The translations under genes were made by a program, and so were the position numbers. Source: Acidimicrobiales bacterium (lineage in GTDB: Bacteria > Actinomycetota > Acidimicrobiia > Acidimicrobiales > UBA8190). Taken from it: a stretch of DNA of 38,998 nucleotides. The notes beneath the pieces are model-generated. The model saw nothing but the letters and a program-made list of their open reading frames with translations. It did no database searches and was not told the origin of the DNA. Where the stretch lies: NCBI GenBank assembly GCA_035531755.1, contig DATKSK010000022.1, positions 1 through 38,998 of the forward strand, in the 5' to 3' direction. This document shows positions 539 through 8,174 of the stretch, in pieces. Position 1 is the stretch's first letter, and every line of letters begins with the position of its first letter.

Positions 539-1066
539 ATGGCGTCACCGATGCGCTGGCTGGCGGCGATCGCCACGGGCGGGGCCTTGACGGGAGGAGC
601 GGTCGCGCTCACCTACAACCCCGCCGGCGCCGTCGCCGCGGCGACGGCCACGACGGCACCGTCCACGCCGAGCACCAACGCCACGACCAAGCCCGCAAGC
701 GACCTCACGGCGGCCAACGTCAGCGTCCAGCGCCTGCTCGACGAGGCCAACCAGCTCCAGTCCGCCATCGGGGCGGCGCGCGCCACGCTGGCCGACACCT
801 TGCGCGCCACCGGCGCCACCACGACGACCGCGCCGGCGCCGACCGGAGGCGGCACGTCGGCTGCCGAGAGCCAACAACTCGCACTGGAGCAGGCGGCCCT
901 GGCGGCGGAGCGCCAGCAGCTCACGAACCAGGCCCAGCAGCTCGCCGGCCAGGCGCAACAGCTGGCGGCCGAACAGACGCAACTTCAGCAGGAGGCATCG
1001 GCGCTGGCGGCAGCCCAGACGCAGGCCTCGGCGACCACGACGCCACCGGTGAGGAACGATGACTGA
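539..1066 (+). CDS. Exported Gln/Ala-rich coiled-coil protein
   Basis: The product is 175 aa. I chose ATG 539 (MASPMRWL) because GAGGGGGG lies about 7 bp upstream; the frame is open earlier, but that sequence lacks a hydrophobic start. An N-terminal hydrophobic segment (about residues 7-30, ending in an Ala-rich stretch) looks like a signal peptide or anchor. A Thr/Ala/Pro-rich linker follows, then from about residue 105 a Gln/Ala/Leu/Glu-rich helix with repeated QQL and AAE units typical of a coiled coil. No enzymatic motif is visible. It is the first gene of a nine-gene chain and overlaps the next start by 8 bp. It may be a periplasmic spacer or scaffold for the electron-transfer machinery; that role is inferred only from position. 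Confidence 0.75.
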   Translation: MASPMRWLAAIATGGALTGGAVALTYNPAGAVAAATATTAPSTPSTNATTKPASDLTAANVSVQRLLDEANQLQSAIGAARATLADTLRATGATTTTAPAPTGGGTSAAESQQLALEQAALAAERQQLTNQAQQLAGQAQQLAAEQTQLQQEASALAAAQTQASATTTPPVRNDD

Positions 1067-1742
1067 CCACCCGAGCCGACGCCACGGGCACGACGGGCAC
1101 GCCGGGCACGACGGGTACGACGGGCACGACGGGCACGACGACGCCCCGCCTGGTCGGGACGGCGCGGCCGGAGCCGTGGCACCGCTCCCCGACGCCTTGG
1201 TGGACGGCCACGCCCGGCTCGTCGGGGCCCGCTCGGCGGCCCGCAAGGTCCTCGCCCGCGGCCGGGCGCGGCGCCGGATCGTCCCGCCCCTGGTCGTCGG
1301 GTCCGGGGCCCTGCTGGGCAGCAGCGTGATCGGCGTCTGGGTCTTCGGGCAGGCGCCGATCGCAGCGTCAACGGCCACGGTCACCGCCCCGGCTCCGTCG
1401 GTGACCACGGCGTCCGGGCAGGACCAGGCGCAGCTGGGCGCCGACGTCGTCGCCCTCGACCACCTCCGCCAGGTCCTTGCCGCCGACGAGGCGGCCATCG
1501 CCGGGCTGGCGACCTCGACGACGAACACGGCACCGGGTTCCCCCGCCCCGGGGACCGCGGCCGGCGCCCCGGGGCCGGGGCCGGCGGCGGGCGGCCAGGG
1601 CGGCTCCGGGAGCACGGGCGGCGCGTCGATCACGCCGCTGGCGCCGCTGGCGCCCCTGCCGACGCTCCCGACGGTCACGGTGCCCCCCGCGACGGCGCCG
1701 CCCGTCCACACGACGACGGGGGCGACCGTTGTCATCCCTTGA
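1059..1742 (+). CDS. Single-TM protein with His/Asp-rich N-terminus and C-terminal TGAT motif
   Basis: The product is 227 aa. Residues ~8-27 are a GHDGHxG repeat encoded by a 9-bp tandem repeat, rich in potential metal ligands. An Arg-rich stretch (about 65-75) precedes one hydrophobic segment (about 76-98), so the N-terminus should be cytoplasmic. The outside part is low-complexity Ala/Thr/Pro/Gly with one short Leu/Asp/Ala helix. It ends HTTTGATVVIP. HxxTGAT resembles the D-x-x-[ST]-G-A-T site to which ApbE attaches FMN in NqrC, with His replacing Asp; the motif stops four residues before the C-terminus. The next gene is apbE, which overlaps this one. I infer a membrane-tethered flavinylation substrate; no classical FMN-binding domain is present, so the motif could be chance in Thr/Gly-rich sequence. 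Confidence 0.72.
   Translation: MTDHPSRRHGHDGHAGHDGYDGHDGHDDAPPGRDGAAGAVAPLPDALVDGHARLVGARSAARKVLARGRARRRIVPPLVVGSGALLGSSVIGVWVFGQAPIAASTATVTAPAPSVTTASGQDQAQLGADVVALDHLRQVLAADEAAIAGLATSTTNTAPGSPAPGTAAGAPGPGPAAGGQGGSGSTGGASITPLAPLAPLPTLPTVTVPPATAPPVHTTTGATVVIP
1084..1137 (+). repeat. 9-bp in-frame tandem repeat encoding Gly-His-Asp units
   Basis: Six near-perfect copies of ACGGGCACG, with single variants CCGGGCACG and ACGGGTACG, lie in frame in the N-terminal coding region of the single-TM protein. They produce its alternating Gly/His/Asp tract. Confidence 0.9.
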
Positions 1743-2694
1743 CCTGGCCCCGGCGGAGCAGCTGGCGACGACGACGGCCATGGCCACGGAGATCACGGTG
1801 CGAGCCGTCGGCGGTCGCGCACGGGACCGGTCCGGCGCGGTCGACGACGCGCTCGGGGTCTTCGCCGACGTGGAGGCGTCCTGCACGCGGTTCGACCCTG
1901 CGAGCTCGCTCATGGGCGCCAACGCCCGGCCCGACGAGTGGCACCGCGTGGCGCCGCGCTGCTTCGACGCGCTCGGGGAGGCATGGCGCGCCTACCGGAC
2001 GACCGCGGGCCGCTTCGACCCGCGCGTGCTGGCGGACCTGGTGGTGCTCGGCTACGACCGGACGCTGGCCTTCGGCCACGGCGGCGAGGACGTCTCGGCG
2101 GGCACCGACGCCCCCCGGCGCCGGCTGGCCCGTCCGCCGTGGCGGCCGCGGTTCCGGCGGGCCACGAACGAGGTCCATCTCGGCGGCGCCGCGGTCGACC
2201 TGGGCGGCATCGGCAAGGGCCTGGCGATCCGCTGGGCCGGCGACGTCTTGCGAGCCGCCGGCCCCGACTACCTCGTCAATGCCGGCGGCGACTGCTACTG
2301 CGGCGGGCGGGCACCGGACGGCCGGCCGTGGCGTGTCGGCGTGGAGGACCCCGCCGGTGGGACCGAGCCAGTCGTCGTCGTGTCGCTGAGCGACCAGGCG
2401 TCGGCGACGTCGTCGGTCCGGGTCCGCCGGTGGCGGGTCGCAGGTGTGCCCGTGCACCATCTCATCGATCCGCGCAGCGGCCTCCCGGGTGGGGACGGCC
2501 TGGCGGCCGTGACCGTGGTGGCGCCCGACCCTGCGGACGCCGAGGTGTGGAGCAAGGTGCTGTTCCTGGCCGGCCGGTCCGGCGTCGCCACCGAGGCCTC
2601 TCGGCGTTCCCTGGCGGCCTGCTGGGTCACGGTCGACGGCATCGTCGACCTGAGTCCCGCCATGCAGCCGTTCGTGACATGGCGTCGCCCGTGA
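1729..2694 (+). CDS. apbE: FAD:protein FMN transferase (ApbE family)
   Basis: The product is about 321 aa. ApbE uses FAD and Mg2+ to attach FMN covalently to Ser/Thr of extracytosolic flavoproteins. Visible family marks are AMATEITVRAVG at the N-terminus (usual AMGTxxxV), DLGGIGKGLAIRWAGD, then YLVNAGGDCYCGG (usual NxGGD), HHLIDPRSGLP (usual HxIDPxTG) and a following VVAPDPADAEVWSKVLF metal-site segment. The start is uncertain. TTG 1729 overlaps the preceding gene and keeps the full N-terminal block; ATG 1780 would cut just before the conserved TEI. No signal peptide or lipobox is evident, so it probably works on the inner face or is anchored by partners. It sits between its likely substrate gene and the haem membrane protein. 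Confidence 0.92.
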   Translation: MSSLDLAPAEQLATTTAMATEITVRAVGGRARDRSGAVDDALGVFADVEASCTRFDPASSLMGANARPDEWHRVAPRCFDALGEAWRAYRTTAGRFDPRVLADLVVLGYDRTLAFGHGGEDVSAGTDAPRRRLARPPWRPRFRRATNEVHLGGAAVDLGGIGKGLAIRWAGDVLRAAGPDYLVNAGGDCYCGGRAPDGRPWRVGVEDPAGGTEPVVVVSLSDQASATSSVRVRRWRVAGVPVHHLIDPRSGLPGGDGLAAVTVVAPDPADAEVWSKVLFLAGRSGVATEASRRSLAACWVTVDGIVDLSPAMQPFVTWRRP

Positions 2695-3572
2695 AGGGCG
2701 CCGCGCGCCGCGCGGCCCCGGCCCGGGCCGGCGGGGGCGGCGGGGCAGGCGGGGGCGGCGGGGCAGGCGGGGACGGCGGGGCAGCCGTGCCGACACACAC
2801 GTCGCGCCTCGGCGCCTGGAGTGTCACGGGCGTCCTGGCGGTCACCGTCCCCACGGGGTACGTGGTGGCCCGGCTGTCCGTGCCGATCACCCACAACCGG
2901 TACTTCCCGTGGATCGTCGGCAGGACGCTCGGCCTCGCCGCCTACGCCACCCTGGTGGGGTTGGTGGTGCTCGGCACGTGGCTCCGCCACCCGTGGCGCC
3001 ACCGGTGGCCGCTGGTCCACCCCGAAGCCCGCCTGCGCCTGCACGCCACGTTGGGGACCGCCACCTGTGTCCTGGTCGGCGGCCACGTCGTCGCCCTCGG
3101 CGCGGACCGGTACGCGGGCGTCGGCTGGCCGCGCACGCTCGTCCCCGACGCGTCCACCTACCGCCCCGTTGCCGTCACCCTCGGGGTGCTGGCGCTCTAC
3201 TTCCTCGTCGCCGTGACCGCCACGGCCGCGCTGGGCGGACGACTGGTGGGGCGGCACTGGCGCGTCGTGCACCGGTTGGCGACCCCGACCCTGCTGCTCG
3301 TGTGGTTCCACGGCGTCCTGGCGGGTTCCGACACACCGCGGCTGCGCGCCGTGTACGCCGTCTCGGGCGCGCTCGTGGCCTCGCTCCTCCTGTCGCGGGC
3401 GCTGGCGGGGACGTCGCCTGTCGGGGCCCGGACCTCCACCCTCCCGTCACGGGCGGCCGCCATGGGAGGGCGGGAAGGGGGTGGCCGGGCCGCTTCCGGC
3501 ACCGCCCACCCACCACCGGCGGGGGCCTGCGGGGACCTGCGACGGGCGCGCCTTCCGGTGCCGGGCCGATGA
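2679..3572 (+). CDS. Ferric-reductase-like transmembrane haem b protein
   Basis: The product is about 297 aa. A Gly/Ala-rich N-terminal tail (18-bp DNA repeat) is followed by about six hydrophobic helices. Two helices carry paired histidines about one helix length apart, LRLHATLGT...GGHVVAL and HWRVVHRLATPT...WFHGVL, which is the bis-His arrangement of the ferric reductase/NOX/MsrQ-like cytochrome b fold. No FAD/NAD-binding reductase domain is fused, so electrons must come from separate partners, presumably the NuoF-like protein and ferredoxin encoded next. It should carry electrons across the membrane to an extracytosolic acceptor. ATG 2679 overlaps apbE by 16 bp; GTG 2691 with a 4-bp GTGA overlap is an equally possible start. 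The C-terminal ~55 residues are Ser/Gly/Pro-rich and cytoplasmic or disordered. Confidence 0.85.
   Translation: MASPVKGAARRAAPARAGGGGGAGGGGGAGGDGGAAVPTHTSRLGAWSVTGVLAVTVPTGYVVARLSVPITHNRYFPWIVGRTLGLAAYATLVGLVVLGTWLRHPWRHRWPLVHPEARLRLHATLGTATCVLVGGHVVALGADRYAGVGWPRTLVPDASTYRPVAVTLGVLALYFLVAVTATAALGGRLVGRHWRVVHRLATPTLLLVWFHGVLAGSDTPRLRAVYAVSGALVASLLLSRALAGTSPVGARTSTLPSRAAAMGGREGGGRAASGTAHPPPAGACGDLRRARLPVPGR
2730..2783 (+). repeat. 18-bp in-frame tandem repeat, three copies
   Basis: Three copies of an 18-bp G-rich unit (GGCGGGGGCGGCGGGGCA, third copy with one change) encode a Gly/Ala tract just before the first membrane helix of the ferric-reductase-like protein. Confidence 0.9.
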
Positions 3573-4930
3573 CCGCGGTCGGCATCCTCGGGGTGTCCGC
3601 CGCTCCGGACCCGGCGGCGGCCGTCGCCCGGCCCGCCTTCGGGACCCTGGGCGACCCCCAGACGCGCCTGCTGGCGGGGCCCGGTCCCGCTCGGGGGGCC
3701 GAGACCCTGCGCGCCCACCTGGACCGGCTGGGACCGCTCCCCCTGCCTGCGCGCCGCGCCGACCTGCTCGAGCTCGTGCGAGCGAGCAGGCTCGCGGGCC
3801 GCGGCGGTGGGGAATTCCCCGTGGCCCGGAAGCTGGCGGCGGCTGCGGGCGCCGGGGGCGATCCCCTCGTGGTGGTCAACGGCTCCGAGGGCGAGCCGGC
3901 GAGCCGCAAGGACCGGACCCTCCTGGAGCACCGGCCTCACCTCGTGCTCGACGGCGCCGCGCTGGCCGCCCACGCCGTGGGTGCGTCCACGGTCGTCGTC
4001 TACCTCCACGCCTCTCGCCCGACCACGTGGTCGGCGGTGGCCCGGGCGCTCGACGAGCGGCGCGCCGGCCCCGGGGACGGCGCCGTGTCCTTCCACGTGG
4101 CATCGGCACCCGACGCCTATGTGGCCGGCGAGTCGAGCGCCGTGGTCAACGTCCTCGAGGGAGGCGGCCCCCTGCCCCGCCGGCACCCGAACCCCGTGGC
4201 GGTCTGCGGCGTGCACGGTCGGCCGACGGTCGTGAGCAACGCCGAGACCCTCGGCCACCTGGCGCTGCTCGGACGCTTCGGCCCCGGGTGGTTCACGATG
4301 GCGGGCTCGCCCGATGCACCGGGCTCGACGCTGCTCACGCTGGCGGGCGGGGTGCGAGCCCCGGGCCTGGTGGTCGAGGTCCTGGAGCCCGTGCGGCTCG
4401 GCGACGTCCTGCGCGTGCACGGGGGCGTCGACGGCGCGCCGGGCGCCGTGCTGATCGGCGGGTACGGCGGGCGGTGGATCGGGGGGGAGGCGGCCTTCGA
4501 CGCGCCGCTCGACCGCGGCGCATTGCGGCGCGCCGAAGTCGGTCTCGGGTGCGGGATCGTCGCCCCGCTCCCGCCCCGGTCCTGCGGGCTCGCCACGACC
4601 CTGGTGCTGCTCGACTACCTGGCGGGCCAGAGCGCGGGCCAGTGCGGGCCCTGCGTCCTCGGGCTGCCCGCCCTGGCCGACGAGCTGGCGGCCATCGTGG
4701 ACGGTTGCGCCACCAAGGGAGACGTCCGGCGCCTGACTTCGAAGGCACTGGGACTTCGGGGCCGCGGCGACTGTTCGCACCCCGACGGCGCCATCGCCCT
4801 GCTCGAGAGCGCGCTCGACGTCTTCGCCGACGACGCCGCCCGCCACGCGCGGGGTCGGCACTGCGGCGGGAGCCACGACGACGGGTGGTTCCCGGTCGCC
4901 GAGGGCCCGCGACCGGTGGCGCCGTCATGA
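3569..4930 (+). CDS. NuoF-like FMN/iron-sulfur NAD(P)H-oxidising subunit
   Basis: The product is 453 aa, starting at ATG 3569 with a 4-bp ATGA overlap. It has the NuoF/RnfC-type core: GRGGGEFPVARKL (about 78-89), VVNGSEGEPASRKDR (about 102-116) and YVAGESSAVVN, the FMN and NADH site; then an SLBB-like Gly-rich segment, then the iron-sulfur region. Canonical NuoF ligates a 4Fe-4S cluster with CxxCxxC plus a distant Cys. Here the triplet reads SAGQCGPC, so the first Cys is Ala, while the distant Cys (GDCSHPDG, about 402) is kept. Only three ligands of the usual four are therefore visible. The protein probably oxidises NAD(P)H in the cytoplasm and feeds the ferredoxin encoded next and the haem protein before it. 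It is not part of a complex I gene cluster. Confidence 0.85.
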   Translation: MTAVGILGVSAAPDPAAAVARPAFGTLGDPQTRLLAGPGPARGAETLRAHLDRLGPLPLPARRADLLELVRASRLAGRGGGEFPVARKLAAAAGAGGDPLVVVNGSEGEPASRKDRTLLEHRPHLVLDGAALAAHAVGASTVVVYLHASRPTTWSAVARALDERRAGPGDGAVSFHVASAPDAYVAGESSAVVNVLEGGGPLPRRHPNPVAVCGVHGRPTVVSNAETLGHLALLGRFGPGWFTMAGSPDAPGSTLLTLAGGVRAPGLVVEVLEPVRLGDVLRVHGGVDGAPGAVLIGGYGGRWIGGEAAFDAPLDRGALRRAEVGLGCGIVAPLPPRSCGLATTLVLLDYLAGQSAGQCGPCVLGLPALADELAAIVDGCATKGDVRRLTSKALGLRGRGDCSHPDGAIALLESALDVFADDAARHARGRHCGGSHDDGWFPVAEGPRPVAPS

Positions 4931-5253
4931 GCGAGCCGGTGCGCCTGGTGGTGGACGCCGCCCGCTGTGACGGCCACGGCATCTGCGCCCTGCGGTGCCC
5001 GGAGCTCGTCACCCTGGACGAATGGGGGTACGCGGGGGTCGATCCGGGGACCGTCCCCGACGGCCGGGTGCTGCGCCGGGCCCGTCGGGCAGCCGCCGCC
5101 TGCCCCGCACAGGCGTTGTCGTTCGTGGCGGTGCGGCCTGCGCCCGCCGACCTCCGGGTGATCCGCGCCGGTCCCCCGCCGACGGCCGGTGCACCCCGAA
5201 ACGGCCCCGGTGCCGTCGTCAGGGTGCACAATCAGGGTCATGCAGGAGGCTGA
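4927..5253 (+). CDS. Single-cluster ferredoxin (3Fe-4S/4Fe-4S type)
   Basis: The product is 108 aa, with a 4-bp overlap to the NuoF-like gene. CDGHGICALRCPEL near residues 14-26 and AAACPAQAL near 62-70 match the single-cluster ferredoxins that often partner cytochrome P450 and NuoF-like reductases (C-x5-C ... CP). The Cys at about residue 24 could serve as an extra ligand, so cluster type is undecided. The last ~35 residues are a Pro/Gly/Arg-rich extension. Role inferred from context: soluble carrier between the flavin reductase and the membrane haem protein. Confidence 0.88.
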   Translation: MSEPVRLVVDAARCDGHGICALRCPELVTLDEWGYAGVDPGTVPDGRVLRRARRAAAACPAQALSFVAVRPAPADLRVIRAGPPPTAGAPRNGPGAVVRVHNQGHAGG

Positions 5254-5854
5254 CGCCGGGTCGTCACGGGCGGTGCCGGGTCCCCCCGGACCGCGTCGGG
5301 CCGGCGCGGGCCACCACACGTGGGTGCCGTGGACGGTCGTCGTCGCCATCGTCGCCGGCGCCGTGGCGGCCGCCGTCTTCGCCGGACGGCCCACGGCCAC
5401 CGTGGCGCTGCCCCCCGCGGCGAGCATCGCGCCCCGCCCGTTGACGGCCGCCCACGGAGGAGCCGGCGGCGGCGCCCCCGGAGCCGGGACGGTGACGGTC
5501 GTGGCACCCGTCCACCCCGTCGAGGTGTACGACAACACCGGCGTGGGGAGCGGCGCCGGCACCGGAGCCGGCACCACGGCCACCGGGGGTACCTCGGCGC
5601 CGAGCGAGCCGGGTGACGACCCCGCCGAGCCCGGGTCCCCGACGTCCGGGGGCGGCTCCGCGAGCACGGGGACGGTCGGGGCCGGGGGCGGTGCGCCCAC
5701 GCCCGGGGCGACGACGACGACGACCAGCGCCGGCGGCGCGAACGACGGCGCCGGCGACAGCCAGGACGGCCCGGGATCGACGACGACGACCGCCGCGGGC
5801 TCGGGCGGAACCGTCGACCACGCCCGCACCGGCACCACATCGGCGGTCGGATGA
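5240..5854 (+). CDS. Single-TM Gly/Thr-rich protein with C-terminal TGTT motif
   Basis: The product is 204 aa from ATG 5240, which overlaps the ferredoxin end by 14 bp with ATCAGGG just upstream. One hydrophobic helix lies at about residues 30-55, followed by a long low-complexity Gly/Ala/Thr/Pro/Ser region that should be extracytosolic. It ends HARTGTTSAVG. HxxTGTT, with exactly four residues after it, parallels HxxTGAT plus four residues in the other single-TM protein of this operon. No FMN-binding domain, lipobox or catalytic motif is seen. I infer a second membrane-tethered candidate flavinylation substrate or electron-relay linker. The sensor kinase gene starts inside its stop codon (ATGA). 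Confidence 0.7.
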   Translation: MQEADAGSSRAVPGPPGPRRAGAGHHTWVPWTVVVAIVAGAVAAAVFAGRPTATVALPPAASIAPRPLTAAHGGAGGGAPGAGTVTVVAPVHPVEVYDNTGVGSGAGTGAGTTATGGTSAPSEPGDDPAEPGSPTSGGGSASTGTVGAGGGAPTPGATTTTTSAGGANDGAGDSQDGPGSTTTTAAGSGGTVDHARTGTTSAVG

Positions 5855-7494
5855 CGCCCGCGGCCGACGACCCGTCGAGCGGGCGCGGGCGCTCGGACGA
5901 CCACCCGGACGACGACGCCCGTACCGCGCGACACGGCCGGGATCACGCCGGGGCGGTGGCGCAACTGATCGACCCCGTCGTCCTCGACGGCGCTGGCCGG
6001 ACCGCCGCGGGAGCCGGGGAGCCGGCTCGGCCCGTGCCGACCGCCTCCACCGAACGTGGCCCGCGCCGGCGGCGCCGGGGACGGCGGCGGCGAGCCGGGA
6101 CGGCGGCGCGTCTGGCCGGCTTCCATGCCGCCGTCCTCGCCGTCGTCCTCGGTGTCGTGGTCGCCGCGCTCGTCCACCAGTTCTCGCTGAGCTACGAGGC
6201 GCTCGCCGCCAACAGCCTGGTCGACGAGCTGCACGCCTACACGGCCGCGGCGTCGCGCGCCGCGCCGGACGAGAGCCTGGTGGCGGCGTCGGTCGCGTAC
6301 CTGCAGTCGCGCTCGTTGCCTGCCGGGACGGTCCTGGTGCTGGCGTTCCGCGGCTCGCGCGTCCTCGCCACACCGGGCGCCGACGCGTTGCGACGCGACC
6401 CGGCGGCCGCTCGCTGGATCACGACACCGCCGCCGGCCACGGTGGTGGAGACGACCCGGATCGGGGACAAGGACACCGAATTGCTGGTGGCACCCATCCG
6501 CACCGGCAGCCGGACGGTGGGGACGATGCTGGCGGCGACGGACCTGTCGCCCCTGCGGGCCCAGCGCTCGCGCGTCCTCATGCTCTCGCTGGCCGAAGCC
6601 ACGGTGGCGCTGCTCGCCGGCGTCCTGAGCTCGTACCTGCTGCTCCGTCGCCTCCTGCGCACGGTGGGTCGCATCACCACCACCGCCGAGGAGATCGGCC
6701 GCGGTGAGCTCGACCGGCGCCTCGGTGACCAGGGGACCGACGACGAGGTGGGACAGCTCGCCACGACCTTCGACACCATGATCGGGCGCGTCGACGAAGC
6801 CATGACCGCGCAGCGCCGCCTGCTGTCGGACGTGTCGCACCAGTTGCGGACGCCGCTGACGGTGGCGCGCGGCCACCTCGAGGTGCTCCAACGCACCGGC
6901 GGCCTGGCCGACGAGCAGAGTGCCAATGCCACGGTGGCGCTCGTGGTGGACGAGCTCGACCACATGCGCGCCCTCACCGAACGGCTGCTGCTCCTCGGCC
7001 GGGCCATGGAGCCGGACTTCGTCAGCCTCGAGCCCGTCGACGTCCGGGCCTTCGTGGCCGACCTCTATGACGCCGCCCGCGTCCTCGCCCCGAGGCGCTG
7101 GTCGTGCGACGCCGTTCCCGACATCGTCGTGCAGGCCGACTCGGCCAAGCTGCGCGGCGCGCTGCTCAACCTCGTCGACAACGCCGTCAAGGCGACGACC
7201 GCCGACGACGCCATCGCGTTCGTCACGACGCTCGATCCCACGGCGGGGACCGTCTCGTTCGCCGTGGAGGACTCCGGGCCCGGCATCCCACTCGCCGAGC
7301 GCGCCGCCGTGCTCACCCGCTTCGCCCGGCCCGGGGCCAGGGGCGAGGACGGCAGCGGCCTCGGGCTCGCCATCGCCCGGGCGGTCGCCGAGGCGCACGG
7401 CGGTGGCGTCGAGGTCGGCGAGTCGCCCCTGGGCGGCGCCCGGGTGGCCGTCGTGCTCCCGCCCGGGCGCGTCGGGATCGTTCCGGAGGCCTGA
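5851..7494 (+). CDS. Two-component sensor histidine kinase
   Basis: The product is 547 aa. An unusually long Arg/Asp-rich cytoplasmic N-terminus (about 1-85) precedes TM1 (about 88-112), an extracytosolic sensor region of ~130 residues, TM2 (about 243-264), HAMP, the HisKA box DVSHQLRTPLTV with phospho-acceptor His330, and the ATPase boxes LLNLVDNAVKAT, DSGPGIP and GSGLGLAIARAVAEAHGG. It is encoded at the end of the electron-transfer operon with a 4-bp overlap, so it probably senses a redox or envelope signal tied to that system. Its partner is the regulator that follows. Confidence 0.95.
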   Translation: MTPAADDPSSGRGRSDDHPDDDARTARHGRDHAGAVAQLIDPVVLDGAGRTAAGAGEPARPVPTASTERGPRRRRRGRRRRAGTAARLAGFHAAVLAVVLGVVVAALVHQFSLSYEALAANSLVDELHAYTAAASRAAPDESLVAASVAYLQSRSLPAGTVLVLAFRGSRVLATPGADALRRDPAAARWITTPPPATVVETTRIGDKDTELLVAPIRTGSRTVGTMLAATDLSPLRAQRSRVLMLSLAEATVALLAGVLSSYLLLRRLLRTVGRITTTAEEIGRGELDRRLGDQGTDDEVGQLATTFDTMIGRVDEAMTAQRRLLSDVSHQLRTPLTVARGHLEVLQRTGGLADEQSANATVALVVDELDHMRALTERLLLLGRAMEPDFVSLEPVDVRAFVADLYDAARVLAPRRWSCDAVPDIVVQADSAKLRGALLNLVDNAVKATTADDAIAFVTTLDPTAGTVSFAVEDSGPGIPLAERAAVLTRFARPGARGEDGSGLGLAIARAVAEAHGGGVEVGESPLGGARVAVVLPPGRVGIVPEA

Positions 7495-7496
7495 GC

Positions 7497-8174
7497 GTGC
7501 ACGTACTGGTGGTGGAGGACGACGACCGGATCGCGACCTTCCTGGAGAAGGGGCTGCGGGCCGAGGGCTACACGACCACGGTGGCGACGCGCACGGCGGA
7601 CGCCGCCGCGCACATCGAGATGCTCGGATCGCAGATCAGCCTCGTCCTGCTCGACCTGGGGCTGCCGGACGGGTCGGGCGAGGACGTCCTTCGCCGGCTG
7701 CGCCAGCGCGACTCCGCCGTCCCCGTCATCATCCTGACCGCCCGCGCCGAGATCGGCGACAAGGTGCGCGGGTTGGATCTCGGCGCCAACGACTACATCA
7801 CCAAGCCGTTCGCCTTCGAGGAGCTGCTGGCCCGGGTGCGCGCCGCGGTGCGGTCGGCCGAGCAGCCCGCGACATCCGAGCTCGTCGTCGACGACCTGCG
7901 CCTCGACCTGCTGTCCAAGGTGGCGTGGCGGGCGGGCCGGCGCATCGACCTTGCCCCGCGTGAGTGGGCGCTGCTCGAGCTGTTCATGCGCCATCCCACG
8001 CACGTGCTCAGCCGGTCGAGGATCCTGAGCCAGGTCTGGGAGTACAGCTTCGACCCGGGGAGCAACGTGGTCGACGTCTACGTGGGGTACCTGCGGCGCA
8101 AGCTGAACCGCTCGGGCCTGCGCCCCCTCATCCAGACGGTGCGGGGCGCCGGGTACCGGCTCCTGCCGCCGTAG
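7497..8174 (+). CDS. OmpR/PhoB-family response regulator
   Basis: The product is 225 aa, starting at GTG 7497 (VHVLVVEDDDR) with GGAGG at 7485-7489 as ribosome-binding site. The receiver domain has acidic residues 8-9, phospho-acceptor Asp53 (LLDLGLPDG), a Thr in ILTARAE and Lys in YITKPF. The winged-helix domain has the typical LSRSRILSQVWEY, VDVYVGYLRRKL and VRGAGYRL. It is co-transcribed with the kinase just before it and is last in the operon; it likely controls this operon or linked respiratory genes. Confidence 0.96.
   Translation: MHVLVVEDDDRIATFLEKGLRAEGYTTTVATRTADAAAHIEMLGSQISLVLLDLGLPDGSGEDVLRRLRQRDSAVPVIILTARAEIGDKVRGLDLGANDYITKPFAFEELLARVRAAVRSAEQPATSELVVDDLRLDLLSKVAWRAGRRIDLAPREWALLELFMRHPTHVLSRSRILSQVWEYSFDPGSNVVDVYVGYLRRKLNRSGLRPLIQTVRGAGYRLLPP

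Follow-up and report, generated by a model that had tools for sequence, protein, structure and literature searches.

The window, the whole stretch of 38,998 nucleotides of an Acidimicrobiales bacterium that was analysed, carries near its beginning a run of forward-strand genes around apbE (Table 1). The apbE start lies 38 bp past the stop codon of the gene for a small membrane protein, here protein A. The order tag protein, ApbE, cytochrome, NuoF and ferredoxin is maintained among related clusters, and in some loci without NuoF, ferredoxin or the kinase, the tag, ApbE and the cytochrome persist. The genome (3.28 Mb) has three apbE loci. A PF04205 profile search of this genome found a single FMN_bind protein, on contig C68 and beside another apbE; an FMN-binding-domain gene is thus absent from the window cluster. 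Just 5' of the cluster, the heptamer TAGCCAT occurs in eight tandem copies (244-299).

Table 1. Genes and sequence features of the cluster, in window coordinates.
Feature	Position	Strand	Basis or remark
S1, small TM/coiled-coil protein	539..1066	+	orthologue comparison
Protein A, proposed terminally flavinylated tether	1059..1742	+	227 aa
C-terminal tag HTTTGAT of protein A	1707..1727	+	Thr223, predicted FMN acceptor; then VVIP at 1728-1739
ApbE (FAD:protein FMN transferase family)	1780..2694	+	Pfam profile, alignment
Ferric-reductase/NOX/STEAP-like membrane cytochrome, two b hemes predicted	2691..3572	+	four invariant His, predicted fold
NuoF-like NADH dehydrogenase subunit	3569..4930	+	Complex1_51K and NADH_4Fe-4S
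Single-cluster 4Fe-4S ferredoxin	4927..5253	+	Fer4_15
Protein B, single-TM protein	5240..5854 (ATG 5240)	+	204 aa
HARTGTT at the C-terminus of protein B, probably coincidental	5819..5839	+	not found in orthologues
Sensor histidine kinase	5851..7494	+	HAMP, HisKA, HATPase
Response regulator	7491..8174	+	

The initial annotation had proposed that proteins A and B share a terminal flavinylation tag with His in place of Asp. Its description of the two tails is exact in coordinates, letters and four-residue spacing: protein A ends in HTTTGAT (residues 217-223), VVIP and a stop, and protein B in HARTGTT (residues 194-200), SAVG and a stop. It described both proteins as membrane-anchored and of low complexity; each has one strong hydrophobic stretch and a tail rich in Thr, Gly, Ala and Pro. 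The count of such C-termini that it had called for was made with a genome-wide DNA pattern (H..TG[AT]T, four codons, then TRR), which returned exactly two matches in the 3.28 Mb, the ends of A and B; the reversed control pattern returned none.

Protein A consists of a basic N-terminus, one TM helix, a low-complexity linker and the C-terminal tag. Its structure model contains helices only (the TM helix and a predicted coiled coil at about residues 121-154), with a low-confidence tail and no FMN_bind fold. A profile search gave no FMN_bind match in protein A or its 31 relatives, and neither Pfam nor NCBIfam has a model for the family. ApbE takes FMN from FAD and attaches it to the final Ser/Thr of D-x-x-[ST]-G-A-[ST]; the seven-residue motif is sufficient for the enzyme and works best at a terminus, and replacing its Asp by Ala is reported to have had a minor effect in one enzyme (PMC12052999). 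The Ser/Thr acceptor of an [ST]GA[ST]-like motif is present in protein A and kept in its relatives, and the first position is His instead of Asp. Near the other end of the protein, 9-bp repeats at 1084-1140 encode a His/Asp/Gly-rich N-terminal segment (HGHDGHAGHDGYDGHDGHDD), seen in none of the orthologues, for which metal binding on the cytosolic side is possible. Twin-arginine export of protein A was considered and dropped, as the RR pair is not retained in orthologues.

An ApbE-alignment scan led to 43 named apbE loci from Actinomycetota, Chloroflexota and others. At 36 of these 43 loci, a single-TM, low-complexity ORF upstream of apbE has [ST]G[AS][ST] among its final 10 residues; 34 of the 36 adjoin apbE directly and two (L103, L104) lie one gene away. 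The remaining loci comprise two outgroups in which a regular FMN_bind protein fills the same slot (L110, L112), one variant whose upstream protein ends in TVTTRASGA (L078), and four with an upstream ORF that was not assigned or was incomplete. Very few others among the 2809 six-frame ORFs of these loci match the tail pattern. The 34/34 tail matches of the shuffle comparison arise by selection, and the fair figure is 36/43. The tail consensus is [H/Q/D/T/V/I]-[AT]-[TW]-[ST]-G-[AS]-[ST], placed 0-5 residues from the C-terminus, with examples from orthologous clusters including HATTGAS followed by GAIP, HVVP, VVVP or GAP, and QATTGAS followed by GVP. In Paractinoplanes durhamensis NBRC 14914 (L086), a relative in culture, QATTGAS is the exact end of the protein. 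The exchange of His for Asp seen by the initial annotation is real lineage variation: the first position is His in 17 rows, Gln in 7, Thr, Val and Asp in 3 each and Ile in 2 (35 rows, one of them, the match listed for L078, spurious).

Aligning the orthologues of A, a check that the same annotation had suggested, showed the last 11 residues to be the most conserved part and the linker to vary. In motif-anchored rows, which were picked for having the motif, the columns P(-6), T, G, A and S hold 3.5-3.9 bits each and the linker about 1 bit. The only conserved columns of a 32-protein alignment are M1, a G and four near-invariant P/T/A/S positions, all but M1 in the tail. Searching 248 genomes of the order for H-[AT]-x-T-G-A-x plus four residues gave 30 matches, mostly in random reading frames; all four matches of the form H[AT]TTGA[ST] fall in apbE clusters of the same kind, the fourth putatively (G119:C74, with tail and position as in L083). 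The tail of A is more than chance, being conserved at the same site in dozens of relatives. At a few loci, the upstream single-TM protein ends with two Cys in place of the Ser tag: ACGSKPC in L152 (453-1478), ACQTSKC in L156 (800-1453), CGPSSC in L184 (608-1813) and CYSTPSGNVRCY in L190 (1471-1806), each followed by the stop. Such proteins may represent a thiol-based version of this tether.

We then consider the enzyme. The window ApbE scores 155 bits against PF02424, matches ApbEs in the PDB and keeps the GGD, HH(L/I)xDP and TS motifs (HHLIDP in the window type), with TSS where the canonical form is TSG. By alignment, the catalytic-triad Asp, Asp285 in V. cholerae ApbE (PMC12052999), is Glu255 here. 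More specifically, window positions 2542-2556 (E255 to K259) encode Glu for the triad/metal Asp and Lys for the usual Thr of AD..[SA]T. This pair of replacements is common to the ApbEs linked to TTGAS tails, and the triad Asp is replaced in every ApbE examined of this first tag type, which suggests, at the level of sequence, an altered metal site. The ApbE ORFs of tagged clusters begin at the catalytic core and have no signal peptide, so the tag is either modified before export or meets an ApbE that has left the cytosol in some other way. The FMN_bind-linked ApbE of the window genome has no signal peptide either, and this topology question is therefore general in that genome.

A trend between ApbE active site and partner type was first noticed in the alignment and then tested on newly fetched loci, using a Pfam profile survey of apbE in 79 genomes of the order. 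FMN_bind-linked ApbEs read TSG...AD..(A/S)T, those beside TTGAS tails TSS...AEVWSK, and those beside VVSGGT tails [TS]SS...AN.AST. The triad Asp is present in 13/13 FMN_bind-linked ApbEs and replaced by Glu or Asn in 44/51 others (Fisher p 6e-9, although the loci are related by descent and p-values overstate their independence). Single-TM ORFs lie directly upstream of apbE at 44 non-FMN_bind loci, and 29 of these ORFs have a tag-like end ([ST]G[AGS][ST] close to the C-terminus, or [GA]S no more than two residues from it), compared with 6.0 expected from shuffled tails and with 53 of 653 control ORFs. Ser is the very last residue in 21 of the 44, the G/A-Ser tags before non-FMN_bind ApbEs include SGGS, TGAS and RGS, and a cytochrome is also present in 25/29 tagged loci. 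The tag patterns were fixed after the first 29 survey loci had been seen; at the later-fetched loci (L177-L214), 11/19 upstream single-TM proteins match, against about 8% of control ORFs.

The second tag type belongs to paralogous NuoF-type clusters with the same arrangement, including one on contig C30 of the window genome, whose small TM protein ends in VVSGG[TS] or nearly so (0-8 aa from the end). A third NuoF/ferredoxin/cytochrome cluster of this genome (C7; L040, oriented 5581-5931) encodes a small protein ending in VVASGGTGW. As no apbE adjoins it, this protein may depend on the ApbE of another cluster.

The cytochrome relatives share four His that are invariant in all 29 aligned sequences (H95, H109, H171 and H184, numbered on the aligned window segment). 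PF01794 is matched by two of these 29, and the window protein itself has no direct Pfam match. Foldseek returned the membrane domains of SpNOX, STEAP1 and NOX5 as best matches to the model, with high probability and weak E-values (0.03-0.2). Together, the invariant His and the predicted fold point to a ferric-reductase/NOX/STEAP-like cytochrome, and a path for electrons from NADH to the outside through NuoF, ferredoxin and this protein is plausible.

Tail conservation, gene linkage, the lack of an FMN_bind domain and an ApbE active site that co-varies with partner type are observed. Flavinylation, topology, the order and direction of electron flow and the acceptor are what we infer in the following scheme. 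Protein A would be anchored by its single TM helix with the N-terminus in the cytosol, and the coiled coil and Pro/Ala/Thr-rich linker would bear the seven-residue tag outside. The neighbouring ApbE would move FMN from FAD onto Thr223, the final Thr/Ser of the tag. Electrons would then pass from NADH to the NuoF-like FMN/FeS protein, to the ferredoxin, to the four-His cytochrome, to the tethered flavin and finally to an extracytosolic acceptor, possibly Fe(III), quinone-like compounds or O2. Carried covalently on a long flexible arm, one flavin could reach both the outer heme of the cytochrome and a farther acceptor. We give this reading as a whole, in which protein A is a domain-free ApbE substrate bearing a tethered flavin fed from NADH, a probability of roughly 0.86. 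Several points count against it. With Glu at the position of the triad Asp and Lys for the canonical Thr, the ApbE may differ in activity or in its use of metal. The tag is predicted to lie outside, yet the ApbE ORFs lack signal peptides. Several loci have other upstream ends (two Cys in L152, L156 and L184), and related genomes have FMN_bind proteins elsewhere too.

The proposal of a shared tag stands for A, whose tail is conserved beside apbE, and fails on present comparisons for B. As a second tagged protein, B was rejected: its orthologues from about ten loci have unrelated C-termini, none with a HARTGTT-type tail, and what they conserve is [ST]TVVxPxxxVxVxD instead of the C-terminus. Since the orthologues end in unrelated ways, HARTGTT is probably a coincidence. 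Shuffling yields a loose [ST]G[AST][ST] within the final 15 residues of B in 15% of cases. In relatives, the protein that truly carries a second tag is S1, encoded upstream of A: S1 orthologues carry HA[TS]TGAS near the C-terminus followed by a D/G-rich tail, and S1-type proteins show [HQ]xx-TGAS with such a tail in eleven loci. There, a second tethered flavin would sit on S1. The S1 of the window has no tag and ends in ATTTPPVRNDD, which leaves a possible though unlikely alternative for B, compatible with the scheme for A, that HARTGTT is a genuine tag gained in the window lineage in place of the one that most S1 orthologues have. Its spacing is exactly that of A, only two such C-termini occur in the genome, and the exact H..TG[AT]T at this position has a shuffle frequency of 1e-4, a form selected after the fact; against it, the motif reads TGTT instead of TGA[ST], the tail is rich in Thr and Gly, and no B orthologue examined has it, the compared relatives all lying outside the genus of the window. 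In the S1 position of L074, a very long ORF (3641-6274, 877 aa as called) ends in HAITGASGGG and a glycine-rich tail, which may reflect a wrongly called start or a protein fusion.

For protein A, other readings of the conserved tail were weighed. Short terminal motifs often act as docking signals, and both cytochrome and ApbE are linked to the tail, which could then be a docking peptide for either of them or for the histidine kinase instead of the place where a flavin is attached. We regard this as improbable: the kept residues match the established ApbE motif, [ST]-G-[AS]-[ST] with a hydroxyl residue last, outgroups have FMN_bind in the same slot, and tag, ApbE and cytochrome stay where NuoF, ferredoxin or kinase is lost. 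The replaced triad/metal Asp of the first tag type, together with Lys for Thr, would fit an ApbE homologue that is no flavin transferase (an FAD hydrolase, for example, or an inactive protein), leaving the tail another role. This is slightly less probable again, since the rest of the active site is intact and one would not expect a dead enzyme to retain an adjoining substrate-like tail across many families. That the likeness is an accident of the Thr/Gly/Ala-rich composition of the tail of A is hardly credible: the motif appears in about 1.4% of proteins when tails are shuffled, and the conservation of the tail in dozens of proteins with unrelated linkers, with the survey counts, refutes it.

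A terminally tagged protein A modified by ApbE thus remains our preferred reading, and it may extend well beyond this locus. We lean towards the view that domain-free membrane tethers with flavin at or near the C-terminal residue (TGAS, SGGS, SGGT and RGS ends), modified by divergent Glu/Asn ApbEs without signal peptides and paired with NOX/STEAP-like cytochromes, form a large undescribed class that outnumbers FMN_bind-linked ApbEs in the sampled order. The initial annotation had missed the S1 tag of relatives, the Glu for the triad Asp and how common terminal tags are beside apbE in the order. If such flavinylation is confirmed, covalent flavin in nature needs no folded domain, a tag on a flexible tether being sufficient; many ApbEs without an FMN_bind neighbour could acquire a substrate, and the Glu/Asn ApbEs would offer naturally occurring variants on which to probe the catalytic triad and metal site. 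Published surveys of flavinylation selected for FMN_bind/ApbE genes that have a signal peptide (PMC8238504) or for named Pfam domains (PMC11334425), and a class of the A type would therefore escape them. No disordered or tethered ApbE substrate was found in the open-access literature searched, and the widespread tether arrangement appears to be undescribed.

Compared with known systems, protein A resembles the FMN_bind substrates (NqrC, RnfG, PplA; PF04205) in its apbE neighbour, its [ST]GA[ST] acceptor motif and its predicted place as a membrane-anchored extracytosolic electron carrier, and FMN_bind proteins occupy the same slot upstream of apbE in L110/L112. It differs in having no folded FMN_bind domain, in carrying the motif at the very end of a low-complexity tether with His/Gln for Asp, and in its partner ApbE, which has Glu/Asn for the triad Asp. 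The cluster as a whole is close to the NuoF-like subset of the MsrQ-like flavinylation systems (Meheust 2021, PMC8238504), which combine apbE, a ferric-reductase-like cytochrome and a NuoF-like NADH subunit in Actinobacteria; the defining cytochrome beside apbE is found in the window. Those systems usually have an FMN-binding-domain gene and came to light via genes with predicted signal peptides, whereas the window cluster has neither. Like A, the FMN_red substrates (Huang 2024, PMC10979944/PMC11334425) are apbE-linked and bear the motif on an unstructured C-terminal extension, but they are mainly from Firmicutes and have beside the tail a folded flavin-binding domain that A does not. As summarised in PMC12052999, the engineered Flavin-tag (Tong 2021) is likewise a domain-free seven-residue motif at a terminus; relative to that summary, protein A would be its natural match, membrane-tethered, set in an electron-transfer cluster and with His for Asp, and would point to a mobile flavin shuttle spanning the cell wall.
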